Origin: Chaetoceros tenuissimus
Lineage: Eukaryota; Bacillariophyta; Thalassiosirophyceae; Chaetocerotales; Chaetocerotaceae
Assembly: GCA_021927905.1 (NCBI GenBank)
Contig: BLLK01000062.1
Coordinates: 930,001 to 994,000, forward strand
Direction of reading: 5' to 3'
DNA length: 64,000 nucleotides
Shown here: piece after piece, positions 1 to 52,965 of the stretch
How positions within the stretch are numbered: position 1 is the first letter of the stretch
How the letters are laid out: each line of letters begins with the position of its first letter
Notes under the pieces: model-generated
The model's database searches: none
Seen by the model: the letters and a program-made list of their open reading frames with translations, nothing else
Told to the model about the DNA's origin: nothing
Translations under genes and position numbers: made by a program

Positions 1-3000
1 CTCGGATATCGTCGAAATATGGGAAGGTCGGGTGACTGTACGTGAGGTAGAGTGGCCGGAGGGATGGAAACTTTTTGGGATGGAATGTTTGATGAACTTT
101 GGTAACTATATTATGTGATGTAGCTTCCGCATATTGGTCAGGGAATTCCATTGGTTTCGGTCGCGGTGGGAATGGCTTGAGCTCAGTGAAGGGTACATCC
201 TCCAGGAGTTCCTGAAAGTGAAAGTCAGGATCTTCAGTGTACGGGTATTGTTCTCGTAGAAGAGGTTCCTGTCTTGGTTGAAATATTTCTTCTGGAGGAA
301 TAACTTGATGGTGCACCGTGGACGGTATGATGTGACTAATGTAGCTGTAGGGAGTAGTATGGACAACTGTACTCATGTTGGGCGTTGTCCGATACGTGAG
401 CGTATACCATGTTTGTGCTGGATTATTTTGGATGATGATTGCCGTAAGGAAGCAGGATTCACAGGGCATATTAGGATATTTAATATCGTGGAGGACTTGA
501 TCACAAGAGATACAGGTGGTGTATGTCGCTTGGGAGACATCTGTCGGACGATGATTGTTTTTAATTAGGGACGAGCATTGTCGGCATATATTGGTGTCAT
601 TGTGGACAACTGGAGCAGATTCTGTGCACTTGCAGAATGTTGTTGCTCTTGTAAGTAGCCGATGGATGTGATATGGATTGCGGAGAGATGGGAATTCATG
701 TGTGAGAGCTGGGGAAGTAGAGATGAGGGTTGCATATGCCACATGTTGGAGGACTAAGTCCTGGAGGGAGTGATCTGGGTCGCTGTAGTGCGCATCGTCC
801 GGATGAAGGAAGTTCAGCCTAGGTGATATTTGGTTAATGATAGTGGTAGGAATGGAGTTGCAGATGATATCTCTGATTTCATCCAGTGGTACTGGGCTTG
901 CCGCTGTATTATTGGCTAGAGTATGGAGTTGCATTTGGTGTGGTGCAAGTGGTGTATATTGGGAAAGGAGCGCCATGGCCGATGGTCTTGGGATGAGCTG
1001 TGCAATAATTTTAGTGGAGAGCTGAACCGCTTCTTGCATGAGCGTACATTGGCTGCAGTCGGATGCTGTGCTTGTCAGTGTATATGGCATGGCCGCGAAC
1101 TGTTTGAGCGTGCACCATGTTCCTTGGCACGGAACCCTTGGTCTTTTCTTACTCGGGACTGGTGTTGGCTTTGGCGAAGGAAGCTCTCCTTCTTTTGGAG
1201 GTTGGGCTTTTTTATAGGTTTGAATCTGGTTGTCCTTGTACTCATTGAGTACACTCTGTATTTTGCTTTGGAGTTTTTCTGTTTTAGTTTGAAGCTGCTT
1301 GAGTAGTCGATAGTACATCTTGAGACAATATGCTGATAGTGTGCTTGCATCGGTAGGCTGTAGGAGATGGCATAGAGTATCTTGTTCGGCAGATTCAGCT
1401 CCTGTTGATTGTAACTGCGTATACAGTTCCGCAATTGTGAGAGGCTGTGCATCCAGTCTTTCCTGTGCTGTCTGATGAATGCGGATGGCTTGAGTGTATT
1501 TAGTGGTTATCATATGGATGTATTCTTCTACTGCAAGATGGGTATTTGTTGGGAGTAGTCCGAGTAAGGCAATGACGGCAGTGTGTTCATCTGGATAAGT
1601 TGGTGTTGTACTGGATGGACCCATAAGATGCGTGTAATGAGCATCTGTAGGCGTAAGAGGTGGATGGACAGTGGGGTTTCCAATCCAGTGCGGCTTACTA
1701 GGATAGCCGAGCTCTTCAAATGGAGGGTAGATGGTAGTGTTAATGTATTCCTGTTGCTCCTTTTCCGAGAGTGGTGTAATGAGTGTTGCATTCTGAATGG
1801 CTGCGCGAAGGAAGAGAGAGAATCTTGGGATAAATCTATTGGGCTGTGGGTTAGGTTGGATGGTATTTATCATGTATCTAGTGAGGCTGTCGAGAGCATG
1901 AAGGATGTCATTGATTGGTCCAAGGAGAGTTCTACGTTTATTCGAGATTGTGCCATGTGTACAAGCAAGGTGGAAGTGAGCTGTAGAAGCTGGTATTGAA
2001 GAATCTGGGCAGAAGGGACATGATAGCATGGTAGTAGTGATTTTTGTTTTTGGCATGGTTTCATTTGGATGACAAGAGAGCTGGAAGCATTTTCTGTAGT
2101 CGTCAAAGATGTGGATCATTCGCTGATGGGAATGTGCCTTCTCCTGAGCTATAGTTCGGAGAGTTTTTGAGGTTTGAAATGTATTGAGGGGATCAGAGAA
2201 GTATGGGCAGAATCGAAGGAACCACTGTGCCGGATTCTCGATTGCAAGCTTGTAGTTGTGACTCGTAAATTGATTTAGTATATATTGTGTGATGTCTGTG
2301 TTGACCAGTCGCGCTCTGTGCTGAAATATGTATTGTAGAGTTTGCATCGGCGGATGTGATATGTCTAATAGAAGGAAGTGTGGAAGTGCTGGAAGTAGCG
2401 CCAGGGCCATCCTAGATGCTGCTCTATCTGCCCATGTGTTAGCCAATGCTAGGGCAAGATTGGGGTGTGGTGAAATTTTAACTTGAACACCGTCGATAGT
2501 TTTGGTGCGGATCCTGCCATAGTTGGTGAGCTGGTGCGAATGTATGTGAAGGAAAAGATGATGTCCTATGCGGAGGCCTACTGTAGAGTTAGTGTAAGTC
2601 GATTCTTGTGTCTCCTCAGGGTTCATTGCTGAGTCTTGATTGAGGGTTGCTATGGTGGTATCTCCCAGTTGCTGAGCAAGCGTTGTGAGGAGGTCCTCGA
2701 AATGAGTCTGGACTGGGATAGGAATTTGATCGGAATACGTTGCTTGTGCTGGTCGACTAGTAGGATCGGGCCAGTGCTGCTGCAGGGCTTGGCTAAGTTC
2801 CGAGTAGTGATGTATGGATGTAGTGTGTATATGCTTACGGAGGTGATGTCTTATGGTCTGTGACTGTGGGTGAAAGTACAGGAATACCTGTAGCAGAACG
2901 ACTCTTGAGTCTAGTAGGAAGATAACTGGTGTTTGAAGGGGACTGGTATTAAGAGACATGGTAAGCGCTTGGGATTCTCCCATGTTGTTGTCAGTATGGG

Positions 3001-6000
3001 CCGTTCCATACGTCTTGGCAAGGATATGATTTCGAAGGAGGACAGGCTTGGGTGGAATGCTTAGAGGATGCTCCGTGAGACTTGTATCAAGGTGCATGAG
3101 GATGCTTGCAGCAACGGTATGATGGTGCTGGTGGTTATAAGCGGAATCAGAAGAGAATAGGAGAGGTGATGAGTATCTGCGAAAGATTCTTTGTATAGGG
3201 CATGTGTTGGAGTTAACGCTGCCGATTGAAAGGCGATGGGATGACTGGAAGTGGCGAAGGGAGTCATTTGGAGATGCATCCCACGTGGGAAATGGTTGAT
3301 TGTCAAATAGGGAGTATGACCTGAATTTCTGTATGGATAAGGGACTTTCATTTAGGAAAGCTGTCTGGTGTGTGGATACTTGGGATCTGAAGCGCATTTC
3401 AAGGAAATGCGAAAGGTGGTTGTATTGTGGAATAAGTTCTCTTGCTGCTGCTTGGATAGCAAGTCTTCGCTGGAATGGTGGTACTTCTGGAACTGATCGG
3501 AGCTGAACTGTGGAAAATATGTCTTGACATTCAGAATATGCCATTGGGCTATGGAATGGAGTCTCTTTTTCTTGATAGAGGGTAGATTCTTCGAGAAGAA
3601 GACCTCTGTAGTTCTCGGCAACCATGGAGTATTTGGTGTTGTTTCGATTCAGGATATGAGTGAGTGGTGACGGTAGTTTCTTGAGTTCTGGAGCCGGATA
3701 TCCAATTTCGTTGGTTGAAACATCATCCATATGTAACATAGAGAGAGCTTTATTAATTACTGGATAATCTGTTGAATGGAGGAAGATGCCCAGTAGTGCT
3801 AGTTGTTGAATGGCATGAGGGAGAAAGTTTTGTGTGTTACTCTTCTTAGACGATGTAGTAATACGATGGAGCATTGCTCGCGTTCTTGTTTGCAGGAGAC
3901 TGCAGGAAGCTGGATTTGGGGCATTAAGAGTAACGAAGAGTTCTCTTGCCATTGCTATTGCTAGGTGAATTGTAAGGCACCCTCGGAAGCCATGGCCCAG
4001 GGTTGTTTGTGGTAGGAAGACATTGTGAAATGTGTCTGCTGGAATCCGTATATTGTATGCCTTGGTGGCAAATTTGTAGAGTGTGATATGATCGTCCTTG
4101 ATAGCATCTTCTAGGCTGTATGACATGGCAAGAGTGTTGAAGCCAAGAGTGGATGTTACTAGTGCTGTGAACTGTGACGAGAAAGTGGTTGAAGTAAGGT
4201 GTCTGTTCTGAAACGATTTGCGTGCTGCATGCATTTTTGCAAAGTGTTTAGGGTGATTAAAGTTGGTATGGGCTTCTGGATTGCTGTATGTACCAAATTG
4301 GCGGATGAGTGATGTTTCCGAGAGAGCTGCCATATTGTCAGTAGGTATTCTCTCCATGCGGACCGTTTTGGTGAGGTGATGCCATGATATGTACGAGAAC
4401 TGGCGAACCGGCGTTTCCTTGGGCATATTGTAAATGCGGATGCGACTCTTCTTGGCGTTTATACTTAGCTTGGTGACTATTGACATGACATTGGACATAT
4501 GGACGTCATGTTCGATGTGTTCATATAGTTCTTCTAGAGTAGGAGCCGTGATATAAGCTGAGGAATCGTCACAGTATGAGTGCTTGGTCAGTGTCGCTGG
4601 GTTTTCATGTTTACGATCGTATGGATGGAGTTCTATAGGGGTATGTCCTGCTGGTGTGGGAAATCCTTCTAATGGTATTACCCATGGTGCAGCACATAGC
4701 CAGGCATCAGCATTTGCAATTGGACAGGAGAGGGCAGATCCTTGTCGGACTCCACAGAGGAATGATGTGGTGACCGGCCCATACGGAGTTGTGGTGATTA
4801 CTGTAACATTGTGTAGAGATTCCGCTATCCATTCCTGGTAGCCCTTGTTTGGAAAGCCCATGAGGTGAAACGGGAGCAGTTGCATTTCTGTAGTGATACG
4901 GTCAAAGTATTTTTCTTTGTCTTCATCTAGTTGGCACAGGAAAATGTCTGTTCTGTCTCGGACATCTTGTACAGCAAGTAAGTGGTTAAGGGTGCAGTCA
5001 GCACAGGAGTGTCCTGGTCTGTATGCTGCGATGGTGTCATCGTACACTCCTAGTTTTTCTATAGCTGATGAGAGGGCTTTAGCGACAATGGTGTCGATGT
5101 ACGAGTCATAGGCATGAAGGATAGATATTGGTCTCTTGTCAGTGGAGTCTGGTTTGTCGATAAGGACTCGGCCTGTCCTTTTAAGTTGTGGTGGGAGGAT
5201 ACGTGTAACTAGAATACTATTAGTAAGTTGATCTAATGCTTGCATCCAGCATGGGTGCAGTCGTGCAAGTACATTTAGTGTGAAGCCATTGAGACGGGCT
5301 GTTGATGGCGTATACTTTATGGTTTTTACCATAGACGGAATTTCTGCTGTGTATACCAGTGTTTCTTGGTGTGTGACTGTGCATTGTTCTACTGTCGCCA
5401 GATATGGCCATTGGGTATGTTTAGAGTTGACATTCGCAGCATGTTTCTTTTTGAGGTATTTAGTAATATCTGGAAAGATTTTGTGGGCTGCTATAATTTC
5501 CTCTTGGATTCTCTTTGGGAATTCTTCAGCATGGGGATGGTACTCTTTGAGATGAGCACTTGTAAATGGTCGATCTGGATCAAATATGATGTGACTCGGA
5601 CCAACTTCATCGGTCTTAATATCAACAAAATGCAGAGGTTTACCTGGTGGTAAATCAGCCTGTTGTTGTTGAGTAGCTCTTGTTGCCTCTTTCTGTTGCT
5701 TGGGCCCTATAGCCGGAATGTGAGTAGGTGCTGCAAGAGGGTTATCATAGATGGGAATCGTGATATTAGCGGCTGGCATTGGGTTCGTCTTGTTGTGAAT
5801 GAGAGCTGCTGGTCGCGATGCGTCTCCAAAGAGGTTGTGGAAATCGATAAGGATGGCGTCAAATTGATTGTTGATGTGCTTGGTACGTTTTTTGAGGTTG
5901 TTAATGTATTTATCTTTGATCTTGTTTACAAATGCTATAGTTGTTTTTCTGTCAGAGACATGGTCGGATTTAGAGAAGGCTGAGATTTTCTTTGCCATAG

Positions 6001-6190
6001 TGGTAACTGTGGTTTTTGTATGCCGAATGTATTGCAGGTACTTGTCTTGGTGAGTGAAAAATGTGTCTTCTTTGGTCTTAATTGGGGCAGCGGAGTCGAG
6101 AGAACATATCGGAGGCAGTGGTTTGATCGCTTTGAAGTCCTTGGATTTGGAGTTCTTCTTTTGTGGAGAGTCTTTGGCCTGTTGTTGTTA
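1..6190 (-). mobile_element. LINE-type non-LTR retrotransposon, partial (runs off left edge)
   Basis: The minus strand is open in one frame from an in-frame TAA at 6188-6190 to position 2: 2,062 codons without a stop. I checked every in-frame triplet across the region. The frame encodes a reverse transcriptase with the non-LTR signature GVRQG and a YCDD box, then an RNase H and a CCHC knuckle. No apurinic endonuclease domain is visible upstream of the RT; only about 250 residues precede it. The 5' end may therefore be truncated, as is common for LINEs, or the enzyme may lie elsewhere. The coding strand is rich in A and C, and the protein is rich in His, Pro, Thr and Leu, unlike the neighbouring host genes. 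An unbroken frame of this length implies a young copy or a selected gene. The 3' end and any target-site duplication lie outside the window. Confidence 0.9.
2..5998 (-). CDS. Giant reverse transcriptase/RNase H polyprotein of a LINE-like element (3' end missing)
   Basis: The first in-frame ATG is at 5998 and the frame continues 1,999 codons to the window edge. Visible parts, numbered from that ATG: RT about 255-520, with RPIS at 289-292, the first catalytic Asp at 358 (LDED, then KYFD), GVRQG at 416-420 and YCDD at 475-478. RNase H-like residues are D951, E1008, D1030, a late His (HSHQ) and D1191 in a WADRAA context. The C-x2-C-x10-H-x4-C knuckle spans 1327-1346. A helical, charged stretch lies near 1490-1590, followed by a Lys/Pro-rich linker. 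Two Cys4 modules follow: C1789/C1791 with C1805/C1808, and C1829/C1832 with C1846/C1849. The activity expected from the family is target-primed reverse transcription of its own RNA. The open frame extends 63 codons upstream of the ATG, so an upstream exon or another start is possible. The roughly 650 residues after the knuckle match nothing I recognise. Confidence 0.85.
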   Translation of the reverse strand, partial: MAKKISAFSKSDHVSDRKTTIAFVNKIKDKYINNLKKRTKHINNQFDAILIDFHNLFGDASRPAALIHNKTNPMPAANITIPIYDNPLAAPTHIPAIGPKQQKEATRATQQQQADLPPGKPLHFVDIKTDEVGPSHIIFDPDRPFTSAHLKEYHPHAEEFPKRIQEEIIAAHKIFPDITKYLKKKHAANVNSKHTQWPYLATVEQCTVTHQETLVYTAEIPSMVKTIKYTPSTARLNGFTLNVLARLHPCWMQALDQLTNSILVTRILPPQLKRTGRVLIDKPDSTDKRPISILHAYDSYIDTIVAKALSSAIEKLGVYDDTIAAYRPGHSCADCTLNHLLAVQDVRDRTDIFLCQLDEDKEKYFDRITTEMQLLPFHLMGFPNKGYQEWIAESLHNVTVITTTPYGPVTTSFLCGVRQGSALSCPIANADAWLCAAPWVIPLEGFPTPAGHTPIELHPYDRKHENPATLTKHSYCDDSSAYITAPTLEELYEHIEHDVHMSNVMSIVTKLSINAKKSRIRIYNMPKETPVRQFSYISWHHLTKTVRMERIPTDNMAALSETSLIRQFGTYSNPEAHTNFNHPKHFAKMHAARKSFQNRHLTSTTFSSQFTALVTSTLGFNTLAMSYSLEDAIKDDHITLYKFATKAYNIRIPADTFHNVFLPQTTLGHGFRGCLTIHLAIAMARELFVTLNAPNPASCSLLQTRTRAMLHRITTSSKKSNTQNFLPHAIQQLALLGIFLHSTDYPVINKALSMLHMDDVSTNEIGYPAPELKKLPSPLTHILNRNNTKYSMVAENYRGLLLEESTLYQEKETPFHSPMAYSECQDIFSTVQLRSVPEVPPFQRRLAIQAAARELIPQYNHLSHFLEMRFRSQVSTHQTAFLNESPLSIQKFRSYSLFDNQPFPTWDASPNDSLRHFQSSHRLSIGSVNSNTCPIQRIFRRYSSPLLFSSDSAYNHQHHHTVAASILMHLDTSLTEHPLSIPPKPVLLRNHILAKTYGTAHTDNNMGESQALTMSLNTSPLQTPVIFLLDSRVVLLQVFLYFHPQSQTIRHHLRKHIHTTSIHHYSELSQALQQHWPDPTSRPAQATYSDQIPIPVQTHFEDLLTTLAQQLGDTTIATLNQDSAMNPEETQESTYTNSTVGLRIGHHLFLHIHSHQLTNYGRIRTKTIDGVQVKISPHPNLALALANTWADRAASRMALALLPALPHFLLLDISHPPMQTLQYIFQHRARLVNTDITQYILNQFTSHNYKLAIENPAQWFLRFCPYFSDPLNTFQTSKTLRTIAQEKAHSHQRMIHIFDDYRKCFQLSCHPNETMPKTKITTTMLSCPFCPDSSIPASTAHFHLACTHGTISNKRRTLLGPINDILHALDSLTRYMINTIQPNPQPNRFIPRFSLFLRAAIQNATLITPLSEKEQQEYINTTIYPPFEELGYPSKPHWIGNPTVHPPLTPTDAHYTHLMGPSSTTPTYPDEHTAVIALLGLLPTNTHLAVEEYIHMITTKYTQAIRIHQTAQERLDAQPLTIAELYTQLQSTGAESAEQDTLCHLLQPTDASTLSAYCLKMYYRLLKQLQTKTEKLQSKIQSVLNEYKDNQIQTYKKAQPPKEGELPSPKPTPVPSKKRPRVPCQGTWCTLKQFAAMPYTLTSTASDCSQCTLMQEAVQLSTKIIAQLIPRPSAMALLSQYTPLAPHQMQLHTLANNTAASPVPLDEIRDIICNSIPTTIINQISPRLNFLHPDDAHYSDPDHSLQDLVLQHVAYATLISTSPALTHEFPSLRNPYHIHRLLTRATTFCKCTESAPVVHNDTNICRQCSSLIKNNHRPTDVSQATYTTCISCDQVLHDIKYPNMPCESCFLTAIIIQNNPAQTWYTLTYRTTPNMSTVVHTTPYSYISHIIPSTVHHQVIPPEEIFQPRQEPLLREQYPYTEDPDFHFQELLEDVPFTELKPFPPRPKPMEFPDQYAEATSHNIVTKVHQTFHPKKFPSLRPLYLTYSHPTFPYFDDIR

Positions 6191-6234
6191 ATGTAAAAAG
6201 TTAATTCCCACCAGCAATAATAATATGCCTGATA

Positions 6235-6750
6235 AAAGACTGACATCTGCATCGAGACTCTTAGGCACTTTCATAACTTTAAAGGTCACTCACAAGAAAA
6301 ATTAGAGACAACACTTCCCGAAAATGCATGATGTAAGGGCCTCATTCAAACAACTAAAACTGCATCCTCTTACTTTCTCTACACAATTCCCCGCATTAGT
6401 TACCTCGACCCTCGGCTTCAATGTACTTGCCATGTTCTATATACCCTTGAAGCAGCGATCAAAGATGACTACATAACTCTCTACAAGTACGCAGCTCCAG
6501 CATTTGGATTCAACCCTGCAGTAGATGCAAAATACGCAAGTTCCTCCCCCGATCTGCTTTGGGGCATGACTTTATCGGACTCCTCACACTTCAACTACCA
6601 ATTGCAACAGTCCATGAACTTTTTGATTTTGTAACTCTAAATGCACCGCATCCATTACAAACATCGTTACTTCAAGTTTGTGCAAGGGCGATTCGGTTCT
6701 CCACAGACAAACAACAACTGCTCCTACTTATGAACCTAAGGATATAAATA
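6235..6750 (+). mobile_element. Decayed LINE fragment, head-to-head with the larger copy
   Basis: Conceptual plus-strand translation resembles residues about 565-675 of the giant RT protein on the other strand. Examples are KMHDVRASF against KMHAARKSF, FPALVTSTLGFN against FTALVTSTLGFN, KDDYITLYK against KDDHITLYK, and LGHDFIGLLT against LGHGFRGCLT. The match passes through several frames and stops, so this is an old, broken copy. The short open frame at 6559-6747 is part of it. It begins only about 45 bp from the 5' limit of the large element, in opposite orientation. It corresponds to a downstream rather than an upstream part of the element, so it is probably a separate older insertion and not a twin-primed 5' inversion. 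Confidence 0.7.
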
Positions 6751-8100
6751 ATATCGCATGTAAAATTACTCGTGTATCAATGATAATTTATTCTCTTTGT
6801 TTCTTCTTCGGGTTCCGTGAAGTTAATAACATGCACGACGTACTTATAAAATTAAAACTACTATCAACGGATGTATTCTTTGCACTGCATATCTCAAACA
6901 TGTGATATTCAACTGGTAGCCACAACTTGGTTCTTCCCTCAAGGTCCATTCCATACTAGTTGGGGGTGGAAGGTCCACCTCACTCCTCTAGCAATATCTT
7001 GGAGATTGCGAAGTCGACTAAAACAATATGAAAGACGTAGTAACCTTTATGATGTTTCAAATCTGACTTGCTTGGTCACTGCTTCCCTCATGAGTCAATT
7101 CTTAGTCTAATACGAAGCTTTCTTCGCGCTTAGGTTCTATTATCTCGACTAGGTTGTCAAAACCTAACGCAAGAATGCTTATCTTCTAGGGCACTCTAGC
7201 GTCATCTAGCGTCATAAGGCTCTAGCACTTGCACCCTCAAAATTATCATTAAAATAAGGTTGGGTTGTTCCTATTCTAATTCTGATTCTGATTCTGTATC
7301 CAATGCCTAGGCAAGTATGATCCTGTCCAAGCACATCAAGCGCCTGTTGAATACAATTTTCAGTGATTGGATCCAATACAAAAGGTTATCTCCGGTGACT
7401 ACTAGTCCACGATGTTCTTGTCCAAGCGAAGCGCATCAAGAGCTGTACCAGTGAAAATGTCCGGTAATGGAGTTGCAACAACAATCTCACTCTTACTCTT
7501 CTTGAACTTTTAAAATGCAAACCAACATGAAAGTTCTGGTGGAGTAAAGTACGCAGAGCACAATCTCTGCACTAAAGAAGGATTCATTCTATCTTCAACT
7601 CTAATGGATGCCCGAAGAACAAAAAGAACTGCAATAGAAAATGCTCCTATGAATGCATGATTCGTATCCCCTTTTGGAATTCTTATTTGCAAGGGCCAGA
7701 TTATAGTCATGGCAAGAAATAAGATGAATACGCATAGCTAAAGAGAGTGTTGTACCACAGAAAGCAATATTGCCAATCTTCCTTTAAAGGAAACGGAGTT
7801 ATACCTAAATCAGGATAACTCGTACCCCCTTAACTCTACTTCTTCTGTGGCTCCCATCTCAAACTTTCTTCTAAACAGTCTGAATACAACTATGGTTCAG
7901 GAAACGCGGTTATCTCTTTTAAAGAAGATAATTGCACCCCCTTAATTCCTCTTTGATGATCTTAACAGCTTTAGTTGGCTAGGCTCAAAGGAATACTGAA
8001 AAGTTCCTTGGAGTCAAGATGAGTCGAATGGAATGGTAAGAGGCCCAAAACTCAAAATGTAGAATAGCGAAAATCAATTGCATTCAACTCTTTGTTTAGA
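6751..8100. other. Intergenic, no supported gene
   Basis: Only short open frames occur. A minus-strand frame at 7510-7710 encodes a hydrophobic stretch but has no recognisable domain and no convincing splice partners. Two loosely similar 60-bp stretches, near 7790-7850 and 7895-7955, share GGAAACG and ACCCCCTTAA blocks and may be an old duplication. I see no tRNA-like fold. Confidence 0.5.
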
Positions 8101-8238: not shown

Positions 8239-10108
8239 CCAACTTCATTGAGACTGTTGCCCCGATAGCAGTGCCAAGCGCTACTCCAAGCTCATCTCCT
8301 ACCGCACAATAGAGAAATGCAGTAGTAGAGTTAAGACAGAATTATAATGAACTTGCTATGTCACAGACAATAGGCCTTTTATGATGGCCGTCATTGTCTT
8401 ATAGAACTGCTTCGAAGAAAAAGGAATCTTTACGAATCTAAAATGAGAAGCCTTTTGACAAGTTCGTTCTTTCTTCATCATTGTTTAGTACTTATAAAAT
8501 AAATAAATCACCAAAGCAGTTTGTTTATCCTTGACAATATAAATATAAATCAACACTTCTTTTCCCCTCTTGATTAATGTGGCCTTCAAATCGGCCATCC
8601 ACATCCACCCTCATCAACTCACAACCACGGCCCGTAATATTGAGACAAAAGAACGATGATCACATCTCTCAGCTAACAATGACCAGACTTTTAGTATATT
8701 TACATGCACAATTCAAGACTGATTAATTCTGACATTACGACGTATATCAAATACCAATTTGTCAATCACAACTTGGAGCAAGCTGCTCTACGACGAGACC
8801 ACTGGTATCAGAAGAGTCAGCAATTTATTTTCATGTCCGCTCGAAGAGAAATAAAAATGTGCAAAAGAAAACTTACTGCGAATGTACTGCTTTGTGAGAA
8901 TCAGAAAATTCTGTAACAAGGAAAGAGTATGCAAAAAGCTTACATACAAAATCAGTGAATCCTAGAACATTATTCAATGCATAATCATATTGTTTTTGCC
9001 ATCATTGTTTAGCATGTTACAAAATTCTTGAGATCAGGAACTCAGGATCTAACAAAATTTTTTAATTCAATATCTCCATTATTTACCCACATTCTGAAAT
9101 TGAGTACACTATATATTACAACATAATGAGTGTAAACTATAAACATGACAAGAAGGAATACCACAGCTAGGCTTGCATCATTATGACAAATACTACAAGG
9201 ATTCCGTTGATTTGTACAGATGGGTGATTTGATTAGAAATATCTGCTTTTCTTTTTTGTATTTGTGGTTGTTAACCCCTTTCCACCCAAGTGCGCTATGA
9301 GTGCGCTATTTTCAGTTTTTTCCATAAAATACTTAATTTTCATCTTCAATTTTTGCCAGACTCACAAGCAATATGTTTTCGACCAATCTACAAGTTTGTA
9401 GATTTGTTCCTCTATTGGATGATCTAGACATGTTTGATAGCTCAATCTTATCCTCAAAACGATGTGTATCGATCCCCAAAGTATGAGTTTTTGAGGTGGT
9501 ATATGGCAATTTGTTGAAATCGATCGCCCAAAATCGAGATTTTTAGAGGGTTCTCATGTACACATTCCGTAAAAACAGAGTAACCAAAACAAAGCACTAA
9601 TCCATTCAATATATATAACAGTAATAAGTCATGAACTTAGTTGTTTCTGAAATTAGATTTTATAGCTATTGTACACAATTTTCTGCAATCAGTCGTATTT
9701 GAGCCTCATTTCCATCTTCTTACAAAAATCTAACTCAATTGCATAAAAAAATCAAACTGAGCTTGGTATTAGCATTGCACTCCTATATTTGAATATGTAA
9801 ATCATTCCCTACGAAGTGCTAAAGTTCACACGAAATACATGACATTTCAGCACATATCACTCAGTTTGACAGCAATAAATAAGCTATATCGACACAAGCA
9901 AAAATTACGTCTATTTCTTAACTATGTATTAGATACGTGTGTAAATTTATATGCTCATTGGTAGTTTGATCTTTATGATATAAGCATGTGAATGTTGGTC
10001 GTTTCATGTGTATTAAGGTGTTGATCGCTGGTTTTTTTCTCAAGGATTAAGGGCCAGTCCGCGTCAGAACGCACGAGTTCTTGTGATAAATCTAAAATTG
10101 AATTTTCT
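8239..10108. other. AT-rich intergenic sequence
   Basis: No coding frame with recognisable content. A short direct repetition of AGTGCGCTAT occurs near 9290-9305. Short AT-rich homopolymer runs are frequent. Nothing else is supported. Confidence 0.5.
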
Positions 10109-16450: not shown

Positions 16451-17518
16451 AATTTCCTTTGTATTTCCTCCGTCTGTGTACCAATTAGATAGCTGGAAGT
16501 ATGGATATCAGCTAATGAAACTTAAGTGTATTGTTTGGTTTGTAAAGGAATACTTGGACCGAATACTTATGCCTTTTACTGTCATCATTCAATAAGGTAC
16601 TCAAATACGATAGTACACAACACTGGTCATCATCTCACTATCATCTCAAAATAGCAGCATCAATACATACCGGGCAATTGAAAATTGGTGGAAGGGAAAT
16701 GGGGGGACACTTTTTCTGCTCAAATAAGATTTTCCACAAAAACTTTTCGGGAAAACCGAAAACATACAGGCATAGAAAAAACAATTCTTTATGCCTGTAT
16801 GTTCTCGGTTTTTGGAATAGGTTTCTGCCGAAAATCGTATTTGAGCAGTAAAAAATTTGCTCCAATTTTTGTGTCGTCTCGACGTGGTCGTGCTTTTGGA
16901 GATGACGCTCAGACTATGACGTCATACTTAACAATCTTGTTTGAAAGTGTCCAATTTGTTAAGCTAATTCTCCAGAGACACATGAAGATGAAGTTTGCTT
17001 AATTATGTAGAAACTTCATTTCTGTCTGTTTTTTACTTTATTTGACGGAATCAACGGATTCTCTGTCGTAAGAGCTTTCGAATGATGTGTCGGGTTTGGT
17101 TGTGCCCCTCCAGGAAGGAGGTGCTCCCTTCCACCAATTTACAATTACCCGGTACATAATAAAATGTGAGCTTTAAAGCACTACGTAGCTACCTATTTCA
17201 TCAAGATTAAATGGCTAGGATTAAAGAGTACAGATTTATTGGTCCTGTTTCAATCTTGTCAAAAATTGGAACTTTTCAAGATTTATGTGGGAAGGCGGGA
17301 TAGTTGTCATCAAAGCAAAACGGTGAAAAAATACTTTCTTTGATTTCAAACGAACAGAAACGATCTTTTTCTTTATTACAGTAGTCTACTACTTATGAAA
17401 GATCTATACAGCAAGGTTTACATAACTGCTTTCATTCACAAATCTTGTATTGAATCGCACTACAACTATATACCTGGCAGTAGAAGTTCGTAGTTCATTT
17501 CAAATTTTAGCAACCGTA
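16451..17518. other. Intergenic between divergent PRP38A and LRR genes
   Basis: About 1 kb carrying the upstream regions of two divergent genes and the foldback element at 16716-16848. No additional coding frame is supported; the frames at 16641-17002 lie across the foldback and are artefacts of it. Confidence 0.6.
16716..16848. repeat. Foldback / MITE-like inverted repeat
   Basis: About 133 bp that folds back on itself. It begins CTGCTCAAATA and ends TATTTGAGCAG, and the two arms pair imperfectly over about 60 bp each, including AACATACAGGCAT against ATGCCTGTATGTT near the centre. Flanks are T-rich on the left and A-rich on the right, so a short target duplication cannot be read with confidence. 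Confidence 0.8.
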
Positions 17519-27795: not shown

Positions 27796-29770
27796 ATGGA
27801 AAATACCAAAACTCTAAAAGAGTGCTTGACGGTACTCGCTATCTCGCACGAAGAATTGGAGAACTTGAGTCTCCAATCTCAATTCTCACTCATCAAGGAG
27901 AATTATCACGACCTCATTAGACAAACTCATCCAGATAAGAATCCAACATTGGATGGGTCGAGGTTTAGAGAAGTGAGAGCATGCTTCAATGTTCTCAAAA
28001 AGAAGTATTCCGAGAATAAGGAATCGCAAGATTTCACGTTTGCAATCTTTTTTGATAATGGCGCTTTGGCTGAAGATTTTGAAGGGTACTTGAATGGAAA
28101 TATTCCAAGTTGGGACTTTTATGAAGCTGCTGAAGCGGTAGAAATGCCGAGGTGTAAGTTTTATTACACATTCATACTTTTGAAATGATTTGATATGCAG
28201 ACTGACTCTCAACTCTCTAAATAGATTGTGTAGAAGCTGCAAAGTCAGGCAGAAGCAAATGTAAAAAGTGCAAAGAAAATATTGAAAAGGGAGACATTAG
28301 AATTGGAGGACTCATGGAAGAATATGGAAACTACTCGCGCTGGAATCACTTGAATTGCTGGAAGATCCCAGAGAGAATCTGGAGTGCATTGAGTGATGAA
28401 AACAACGCTGATACTGTCTTGTCAGAGCTACTTGAAATGGATGAACTTGTACTCAAAGGTTTGAACGTCCTAGAACATTCTGATCAAGTGAATATTGTAG
28501 CATGCGTCAAAGATTCGACCAAATGGGCTTCTTATAGTAAGAAAAAACAGAAAGATAGAGAGGCTCGGCTAAACAGCCAGCGTGAAGCAATGGAAGCTGA
28601 TGATAGCAAACCTGCTGCTGTATGTGAGCCAGATGAAAACGAAGATGACCGTAAGCCTGCTGCAAAACAGGATAACGAAACAGAATCTACAATGAATGTA
28701 GATGAGAGTGCTGCGAAACATTCGAGTACAGAGACTAATGCCGTGTCATCTCAAGATTCCACAAACAATGAAACTCATACTTTTGAGATCCCAATTCCTG
28801 GGAAGAATGGCTGCCTCGTCGATAAGCTCAAAGATAAGGTCTTTGTTATATCTGGTTCTTTTGGTGATTTGGGAAACGGAAAGGGAAGAGGGACAACCAA
28901 GGCTAGAGCTGTAGTTGAGAGTTTTGGAGGCACGGTCAGAAAGGCAATTTCCGGAAATACTGATTATCTGCTCCTTGGGTCTCGAGCAAATTGCAAAATA
29001 GTTGCAAAGGGCAAGGAGATGAGTAATGTTACTTTGATCAGTGCCATTTCCCTTCAAAAGCTTTTGCTAAATAAGATCGATTTTGAATCCCTATCTCTTG
29101 AAGGCATTACCGAGTACGATAGAAACGAGGATGAAAAAGAGAATAAGCGTCCTGCAGGTGATAGTGATGAAAGAGCCGAGAAACCAGCAGCAAAACGGCA
29201 GAGAACAGGTGCTTTAGTGGAAGCTACCTCTATCTCTACCTCTGCCTCTGCGATTGCTCTTCCGGAGAAGAAGCAGAAATTTGAAATTCCAGTACCAGGG
29301 AGAGAAGGTGCTGTTCCGGACGCTTTGAATGGAAAGATCTTTGTTATCACTGGAGTATTCCCTGAGTTAGGCGGAGGGGCAGGCTTGACTCTAGGAAAGA
29401 ACAAGTGTACCAGTAAGTATCAACTCTTGTATCAACGCTAGGTTTCAAAGGTATCATAGTCCGGCCGACGGTTAGTATTTTTTTTCTGACTTTTTCTTGC
29501 TCTTGACCTAAAGCTATGATTGAGAATTTTGGCGGAGTTGTCAGGTCTGCAATTTCAGGGAAAACGAATTACCTAGTAGTAGGAAAGGAACCAGGACCTT
29601 CGAAGTACAATCAAGCGAAGACAAAAGGACTTCCAATGCTTGATTTGAGAGAGCTTCGGCGTTTGATGATGGGCGAAACAACTTTGGAAGCTATTGATGA
29701 AAATCCGCCTCAGCTTCAAATTCAAAAATTCTGTGATATCGCTAGTAGAAAGAGGATTGGCGAGTGGTAA
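27796..29770 (+). CDS. J-domain, PARP-type zinc finger and two BRCT domains in one protein
   Basis: Three exons: 27796-28153, 28225-29412 and 29514-29770; 600 residues. A J-like domain occupies about 8-75 with HPDK at 45-48. A PARP-type zinc finger follows at about 120-170, with C132, C135, H161 and C164 in the usual AKSGRSKCKKC and WNHLNCW settings. An acidic/Lys linker leads to BRCT1 (about 318-400; VFVISGSFG, ESFGGTVRKAISG, TDYLL) and BRCT2 (about 484-575; IFVITGVF, NFGGVVRSAISGKTNYLVVG), both closest in pattern to RFC1/NAD-ligase BRCTs. There is no PARP catalytic or ligase domain. The parts imply binding of DNA breaks in the nucleus with a co-chaperone link. A decayed copy lies at 52267-52965. 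Confidence 0.85.
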
Positions 29771-52266: not shown

Positions 52267-52965
52267 AACTTATTTCAAAGCGTTCGAAACAGCGCCTTCT
52301 CCCCATGCTTTTTCTCCTTTTAAGAGAGCAATGGCAGAGGCAGAGATACCTTCCAATAGAGCATCTGTTTTCTGCCGTTTTGCTGCTGGTTTCTTATCCC
52401 CTTTATCACTATCATATACAGGACGCTTATTCTCTTCATCACACTTGTCATACTCAGTAAAATCTTCAAGAGATATGGTTTCAAACCAATCTCTTTAAGC
52501 AGCATCTTTTCAAGGGAAAAGGCACTGTCCAAAGGATCATGACTGTCTTGTTGCCCTTTACATCTCTAGATCCATGGAGAAGATAATCAGTATGTCCAGA
52601 AATTGCCTTTCTATCCGTGCCCCCAAAACTCTCAACTACATCTCTAGCCTTGGTTGTTCCTGTTCCCTTTCCGTTCCCCAAATCACCGAAAGAGCTAGAG
52701 AAACCTTTCTTCGAGCTTATCGACGAGGCAACCATTGTTTCCAGGAATTGCTGTATTAACAAATTGTAGAATCTATTTCGTGATCACCTTTTGTATTAGA
52801 ATTGCGGTCATCTTTGTTATCAGCAGTCATCAGCTTCCATTGTTACAAAGTGAAGTTGGCCAAACCTCTCTAGGAAGCCCATATGGCCAAATCTCTAATG
52901 AATGCTCAATATTCTTATTCTCTAGATCAGAATTTTGTAGGAAATTCAAACCTTTGAGTACGACT
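52267..52965 (-). pseudogene. Decayed copy of the J/zf-PARP/BRCT gene
   Basis: The minus strand resembles the region of the gene at 27796-29770 that runs from just before BRCT1 to the start of BRCT2. Matching blocks are NGCLVDKL, FGDLGNGKG, GTTKAR, VVESFGG, RKAISG, TDYLL, then ENKRPV against ENKRPA, KKPAAKRQK against EKPAAKRQR, and SASAIAL. Frames shift and stops interrupt, and a segment of about 25 codons between BRCT1 and the linker is altered. The match breaks exactly at the CCTAAA tail, and a weak continuation (AAG, then ATCACTG) may resume on the far side near 51055-51085. The LINE therefore probably inserted into this old copy. Confidence 0.8.

Follow-up and report, generated by a model that had tools for sequence, protein, structure and literature searches.

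What kind of gene occupies the left edge of this DNA? The window (the whole stretch that was analysed, 64 kb) carries on its minus strand a reading frame that runs from position 6187 to position 2 and exits at the window edge, a span of 2,062 codons with no stop. The preliminary description had reported this frame as uninterrupted, and the observation is confirmed; with the frame's own base composition and independent bases, the probability of zero stops is ~7e-42. The remaining two sense frames over the same span contain 56 and 104 stops, against 82, 91, and 162 in the three antisense frames. The first ATG is at 5998 and leaves 1,999 codons within the window (2–5998, minus strand). The in-frame codon score is above zero in 30 of 31 windows of 63 codons along the frame, with a mean of 0.14 (s.d. 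0.08, 31 windows), compared with out-of-frame means of −0.23 and −0.27. The sense strand is A-/C-rich (A 0.32, C 0.30, G 0.15, T 0.23), and the codon composition differs from that of eight pooled neighbouring ORFs. No internal repeats were found in the frame protein by blastp up to E 5. We put a probability of about three in four on the following answer: the frame belongs to a recent, probably 5'-truncated LINE-type (non-LTR) retrotransposon insertion in a nuclear genome, whose host is a photosynthetic eukaryote and probably a diatom or another heterokont alga.

The frame encodes a reverse transcriptase (RT), as had been proposed. Pfam RVT_1 matches residues 343–584 (4436–5161, minus strand) with E 1.2e-7 when the whole frame is searched and 6.4e-9 when the region is searched alone. 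The RT motifs follow each other in the order A-B-C-D, namely LDEDKEKYFDR, GVRQGSALS, YCDD, and SINAKKSRI. Motif B has the form GVRQGxxLS, which we take to be the LINE-like consensus. The CCHC knuckle of the preliminary description is also present, as C-x2-C-x10-H-x4-C at 2020–1955 on the minus strand (within residues 1390–1411, the motif itself spanning 1390–1409), and its location downstream of the RT is presumably another LINE-like trait. The RT domain with these motifs points to an element of LINE type, an assignment made from the motif consensus.

Residues 1012–1260 (2408–3154, minus strand) form a putative RNase H-like region. In this region, a D-E-D-H-D series (D1014, E1071, D1093, H1218, and D1254) is arranged in RNase H order, with a last spacing that exceeds the one typical of the RNase H family. 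No Pfam model was listed over the region up to E 10, a limit below which HMMER filters still discard most matches above ~0.1. The earlier RNase H claim thus agrees with the residue order and has no Pfam match behind it; an RNase H in this protein is plausible but unproven, judged by the order of its putative catalytic residues. Single-sequence AlphaFold2 predictions gave a mean pLDDT of 31.6 for the RNase H region and a pLDDT of 29.7 for the RT region, too low to indicate a fold. Residues 1–282 have no Pfam match. Neither an apurinic-type nor a restriction-like endonuclease is matched by Pfam in the visible protein, both ends of which may lie out of view.

The knuckle is followed by a C-terminal extension of at least 651 residues (2–1954, minus strand), the end of which lies beyond the window; the hundreds of extra residues noted earlier are thus borne out. 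Pfam and PDB sequence searches assign the extension to no recognised family. It contains an eight-cysteine cluster, C-x-C-x13-C-x2-C-x20-C-x2-C-x13-C-x2-C, at residues 1852–1912 (452–634, minus strand). A simple pattern search finds a single PD-x(n)-[DE]-x-K string, located at residues 1987–2004 (229–176). A DUF7615 match at residues 1571–1603 (E 0.019–0.21, under its cut-off) was rejected as weak, as were Pfam matches to Syntaxin_2, Spt4, zf-C2HC5, and DUF3429 (E 0.15 to 9.9). The long extension is real and unusual, in that it falls outside the common LINE layouts.

These parts suggest how the element would propagate. Through target-primed reverse transcription at a nicked target, the protein would turn the RNA that encodes it into DNA. 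Within it, the RT would polymerise and the RNase H-like region would clear away the RNA template, and nucleic acid would be bound by the zinc knuckle and the cysteine cluster. The endonuclease would have been part of a lost N-terminus or would be encoded beyond the window edge. Because the 3' end of the element is outside the window, no tail or target-site duplication is in view.

A second, diverged copy of the family lies next to the frame in inverted orientation. When the frame was compared with the rest of the window by tblastn, the plus strand from 6204 matched residues 614–782 in three pieces with 43 to 51% identity (E 9e-26), and plus-strand positions 8695–8808 matched residues 1286–1323 with 45% identity (E 7e-5). 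Frameshift-aware alignment extends these matches to two fragments, 6204–6717 with a score of 324 and 8695–8842 (residues 1286–1334) with a score of 99, against maxima of 51 in eight shuffled controls and 56 in reversed-sequence controls. The first fragment contains an in-frame stop and frameshifts. No third copy is clearly above control level on either strand in the rest of the 64 kb (best score, 57). The evidence for more than one family copy is this one decayed relative, in two fragments within the window, and it covers neither the N-terminus nor the C-terminal extension of the frame. Between the two fragments, two similar stretches around 'ttaagggggt...ccg(c)gtttcc' were seen by eye on the minus strand at 7770–7970, possibly a separate small repeat.

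The intact and the decayed copy encode the same residue at 97 of 196 aligned codons (~50% protein identity), counted in six hand-picked alignment blocks without the few residues around frameshifts and at the ends. Twin-priming inversion of a single insertion is rejected as the origin of the inverted neighbour, given that only about half of the residues agree between the copies. The 266 mismatches are distributed over codon positions 1, 2, and 3 as 74, 66, and 126, and position 3 is the highest in all six blocks. Because nearly half of the mismatches are at codon position 3, much of the divergence arose under protein constraint; it accumulated while both lineages encoded a working protein, as in active element lineages. 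The A-/C-rich sense strand is also seen in the decayed copy, more weakly than in the intact one. Strand-biased composition of LINEs is known (PMC9099904). Judged from the two sequences, the locus holds a mobile-element family with at least two lineages.

The boundary between the two copies bears on the missing N-terminal endonuclease. The last open base of the frame and the edge of the decayed relative are 16 nt apart, separated by 6188–6203, which we list as a probable insertion junction: the first in-frame minus-strand stop is on one side and the plus-strand relative is on the other. Plus-strand GC skew in 100-nt windows changes from 0.38 to 0.46 (the four windows starting at 5950–6100) through 0.11 (6150) to −0.18 to −0.54 (the four starting at 6200–6350), and the upstream limit of the frame falls within this ~100-nt zone of composition break. 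The intact element probably inserted into the older one or next to it; the other half of the older one, if it exists, would sit to the left of the window.

Upstream of the first ATG, 63 codons (5999–6187, minus strand) are open and were read as remnant coding sequence of a 5'-truncated ORF. They score 0.132 per codon in frame, similar to the frame mean, and this score was reached in 8 of 4000 shuffles and in 6 of 228 stop-free shuffles. The other two frames of these 189 nt score −0.03 and 0.00, against means of −0.23 and −0.27 within the frame, so that the contrast between frames is smaller here, and one of the two is open here as well. Coding sequence thus seems to reach the junction, as a 5'-truncated insertion would predict, with the modest strength that one 189-nt stretch of weak frame contrast can give. 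5' truncation is common for LINE insertions. In addition, ~340 residues precede the RVT_1 match, which is roughly what a LINE ORF2 would retain once its N-terminal endonuclease had been lost. Truncation rather than a new layout best explains the absent endonuclease, because the frame opens 16 nt from the relative, near the composition break, with a modest coding signal up to the junction.

The main alternative is a full-length element without an N-terminal endonuclease, in which the endonuclease would be C-terminal, after the knuckle or past the window edge as in the R2/CRE-like order, and an RNase H would have been added. The ATG at 5998 has what we take to be a good start context (A at −3 and G at +4), so that the element could be full-length with a short leader. 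The opening of the frame near the composition break, the weak contrast between frames ahead of the ATG, the long C-terminal extension with its zinc cluster, and the PD-x(n)-[DE]-x-K string are compatible with such an element. However, the coding signal continues from the ATG up to the junction, and the PD-ExK string has no profile match and is of a kind of short pattern that often arises by chance. Moreover, the Utopia LINEs of oomycetes, a family with a restriction-like endonuclease, have RNase H upstream of RT (PMC4640811). We therefore regard a full-length element as unlikely. The preliminary description had placed the RT without an N-terminal endonuclease off the standard LINE layouts. This is not established: the frame starts at a probable insertion junction with coding signal running up to it, and a new layout without endonuclease is unsupported because neither end of the element is fixed and the 5' end looks truncated.

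Searches for relatives bear on the class of the RT. Among plasmids, tblastn up to E 10 returned 13 records. One is an RT-domain protein (2e-5) and six are group II intron RTs (3e-3 to 0.7); the other six, all from Bradyrhizobium (E 4 to 8), carry no RT annotation. The same search of phages gave no match. Viral and prokaryote genome contigs were scanned with short exact peptides as seeds, so that close relatives only were within reach. In viral contigs, 10 stretches matched the pattern of the ATG-start whole protein and 4 that of the RT core, none of which encoded a relative, and the RT motif pattern had no match. In prokaryote genome contigs, 21 stretches (ATG-start whole protein) and 32 stretches (RT core) matched, again with none encoding a relative. 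PDB was searched by sequence with four queries, namely the frame from the ATG, its last 600 residues, and the RNase H and RT regions, and gave nothing up to E 10. One weak match each in NCBIfam (E 2.2) and PHROGs (E 0.11) was rejected. Beyond the weak bacterial RT matches, these searches of viral, prokaryote, phage, and plasmid collections yielded no relative; the element may yet match a named eukaryotic family.

Another RT class, namely a group II intron-derived, DIRS-like, Penelope-like, or LTR element, is very improbable. The group II intron annotation of 6 of the 13 plasmid records speaks for it. Against it, motif B and the CCHC knuckle after the RT are LINE-like, no integrase, tyrosine recombinase, or GIY-YIG family is among the Pfam matches, and no Rfam family, group II introns included, reaches cut-off in the window.

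The surroundings of the element point to the host. Eight of ten neighbouring ORFs scanned have Pfam matches, which include phytoene synthase, PRP38, YIF1, a DEAD helicase, and cold-shock domains; one of the eight matches, BRCT, is just under cut-off. We read these ORFs as the nuclear genome of a photosynthetic eukaryote. Leader peptides of plastid type with an ASAFAP-like motif occur in window ORFs, which we take to indicate a diatom or other heterokont. No tRNA was found in the window. Part of the weak-BRCT gene (ORF 28314–29441, plus strand), 28851–29245, has an inverted partial copy at 52328–52699. This copy consists of two blocks of 136 and 121 nt that are 88% and 79% alike, and its translation contains stops and frameshifts. 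Elsewhere, an imperfect palindrome at 16711–16853, between listed ORFs, has 69-nt arms that are 80% complementary and a 5-nt spacer; it could be a fold-back element.

The frame contains no disabling change in 6,186 nt, and 3.75% of single substitutions in it would create a stop. From stops alone, neutral divergence is at most 1.3% (95% upper bound); assuming an indel-to-substitution ratio of 0.05 or 0.1 lowers this limit to 0.55% or 0.35%, respectively. Because zero disabling changes bound the neutral age to ~0.35–1.3% divergence, a recent insertion would suffice to explain the open frame, and selection need not be invoked. The frame had been described as recently active or domesticated. Recent activity fits the intact frame and the diverged relative that adjoins it; domestication has no positive support. 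A domesticated single-copy host gene of LINE origin, which would account for the long stop-free frame, is the least probable reading, given the transposon-like strand composition, a codon use unlike that of the pooled neighbouring ORFs, a start at an insertion-like junction adjoining a decayed inverted relative, and an intactness that recent insertion explains.

A recent, probably 5'-truncated LINE-type insertion can be set beside known LINE groups. In LINEs of the I group, RNase H lies downstream of RT, and the protein has a CCHC knuckle. If our motif reading holds, the frame is like the I group (I, Ingi, Nimb, Loa, R1, Tad1, Loner, and Outcast) in carrying RT and RNase H in one long ORF. It differs in that no N-terminal apurinic-type endonuclease is visible (probably truncated), its RNase H is putative, and at least 651 residues follow the knuckle. 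The I-group clades are listed with RNase H in PMC4640811. The same source reports Dualen/RandI with both endonuclease types, a combination that would allow for a C-terminal module. Compared by description, Dualen/RandI pairs RT with RNase H, as the frame putatively does; unlike Dualen/RandI, the visible part of the frame here has neither endonuclease detected. If the host here is a stramenopile, Utopia of oomycetes comes from the same host group; it is a LINE of stramenopiles that carries RNase H and zinc fingers. In contrast to Utopia, the RNase H-like motifs here are downstream of RT, in a protein whose N-terminus may be truncated. Utopia inserts in U2 snRNA genes, and U2 fragments are usually seen in its 3' flank (PMC4640811); U2 has no Rfam match in the window, and the 3' flank of the element lies outside it. 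Ambal and RTETP are both on the Repbase non-LTR clade list (PMC5753468), and their common ground with the element would be the non-LTR type.

Three oomycete retroelement groups are reported to have captured RNase H independently (PMC5348765), and RTE-like elements (PMC2806351) and LINE/Ambal repeats (PMC12803021) are reported in diatoms. Text from PMC7017206 offered no information on how LINEs are laid out. An element with a C-terminal extension of this kind was not found in the literature searched, as far as its accessible text goes, which is not proof of its absence from print. In the same literature, the LINEs of diatoms and related algae are described only briefly. The C-terminal extension is the sole feature here that merits follow-up. 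It could, as a decidedly doubtful proposal, mark an algal LINE lineage in which one protein with RT, RNase H, and zinc knuckle continues into a new module with paired zinc ribbons, more than 650 residues long, that would target or nick DNA instead of the usual N-terminal endonuclease.
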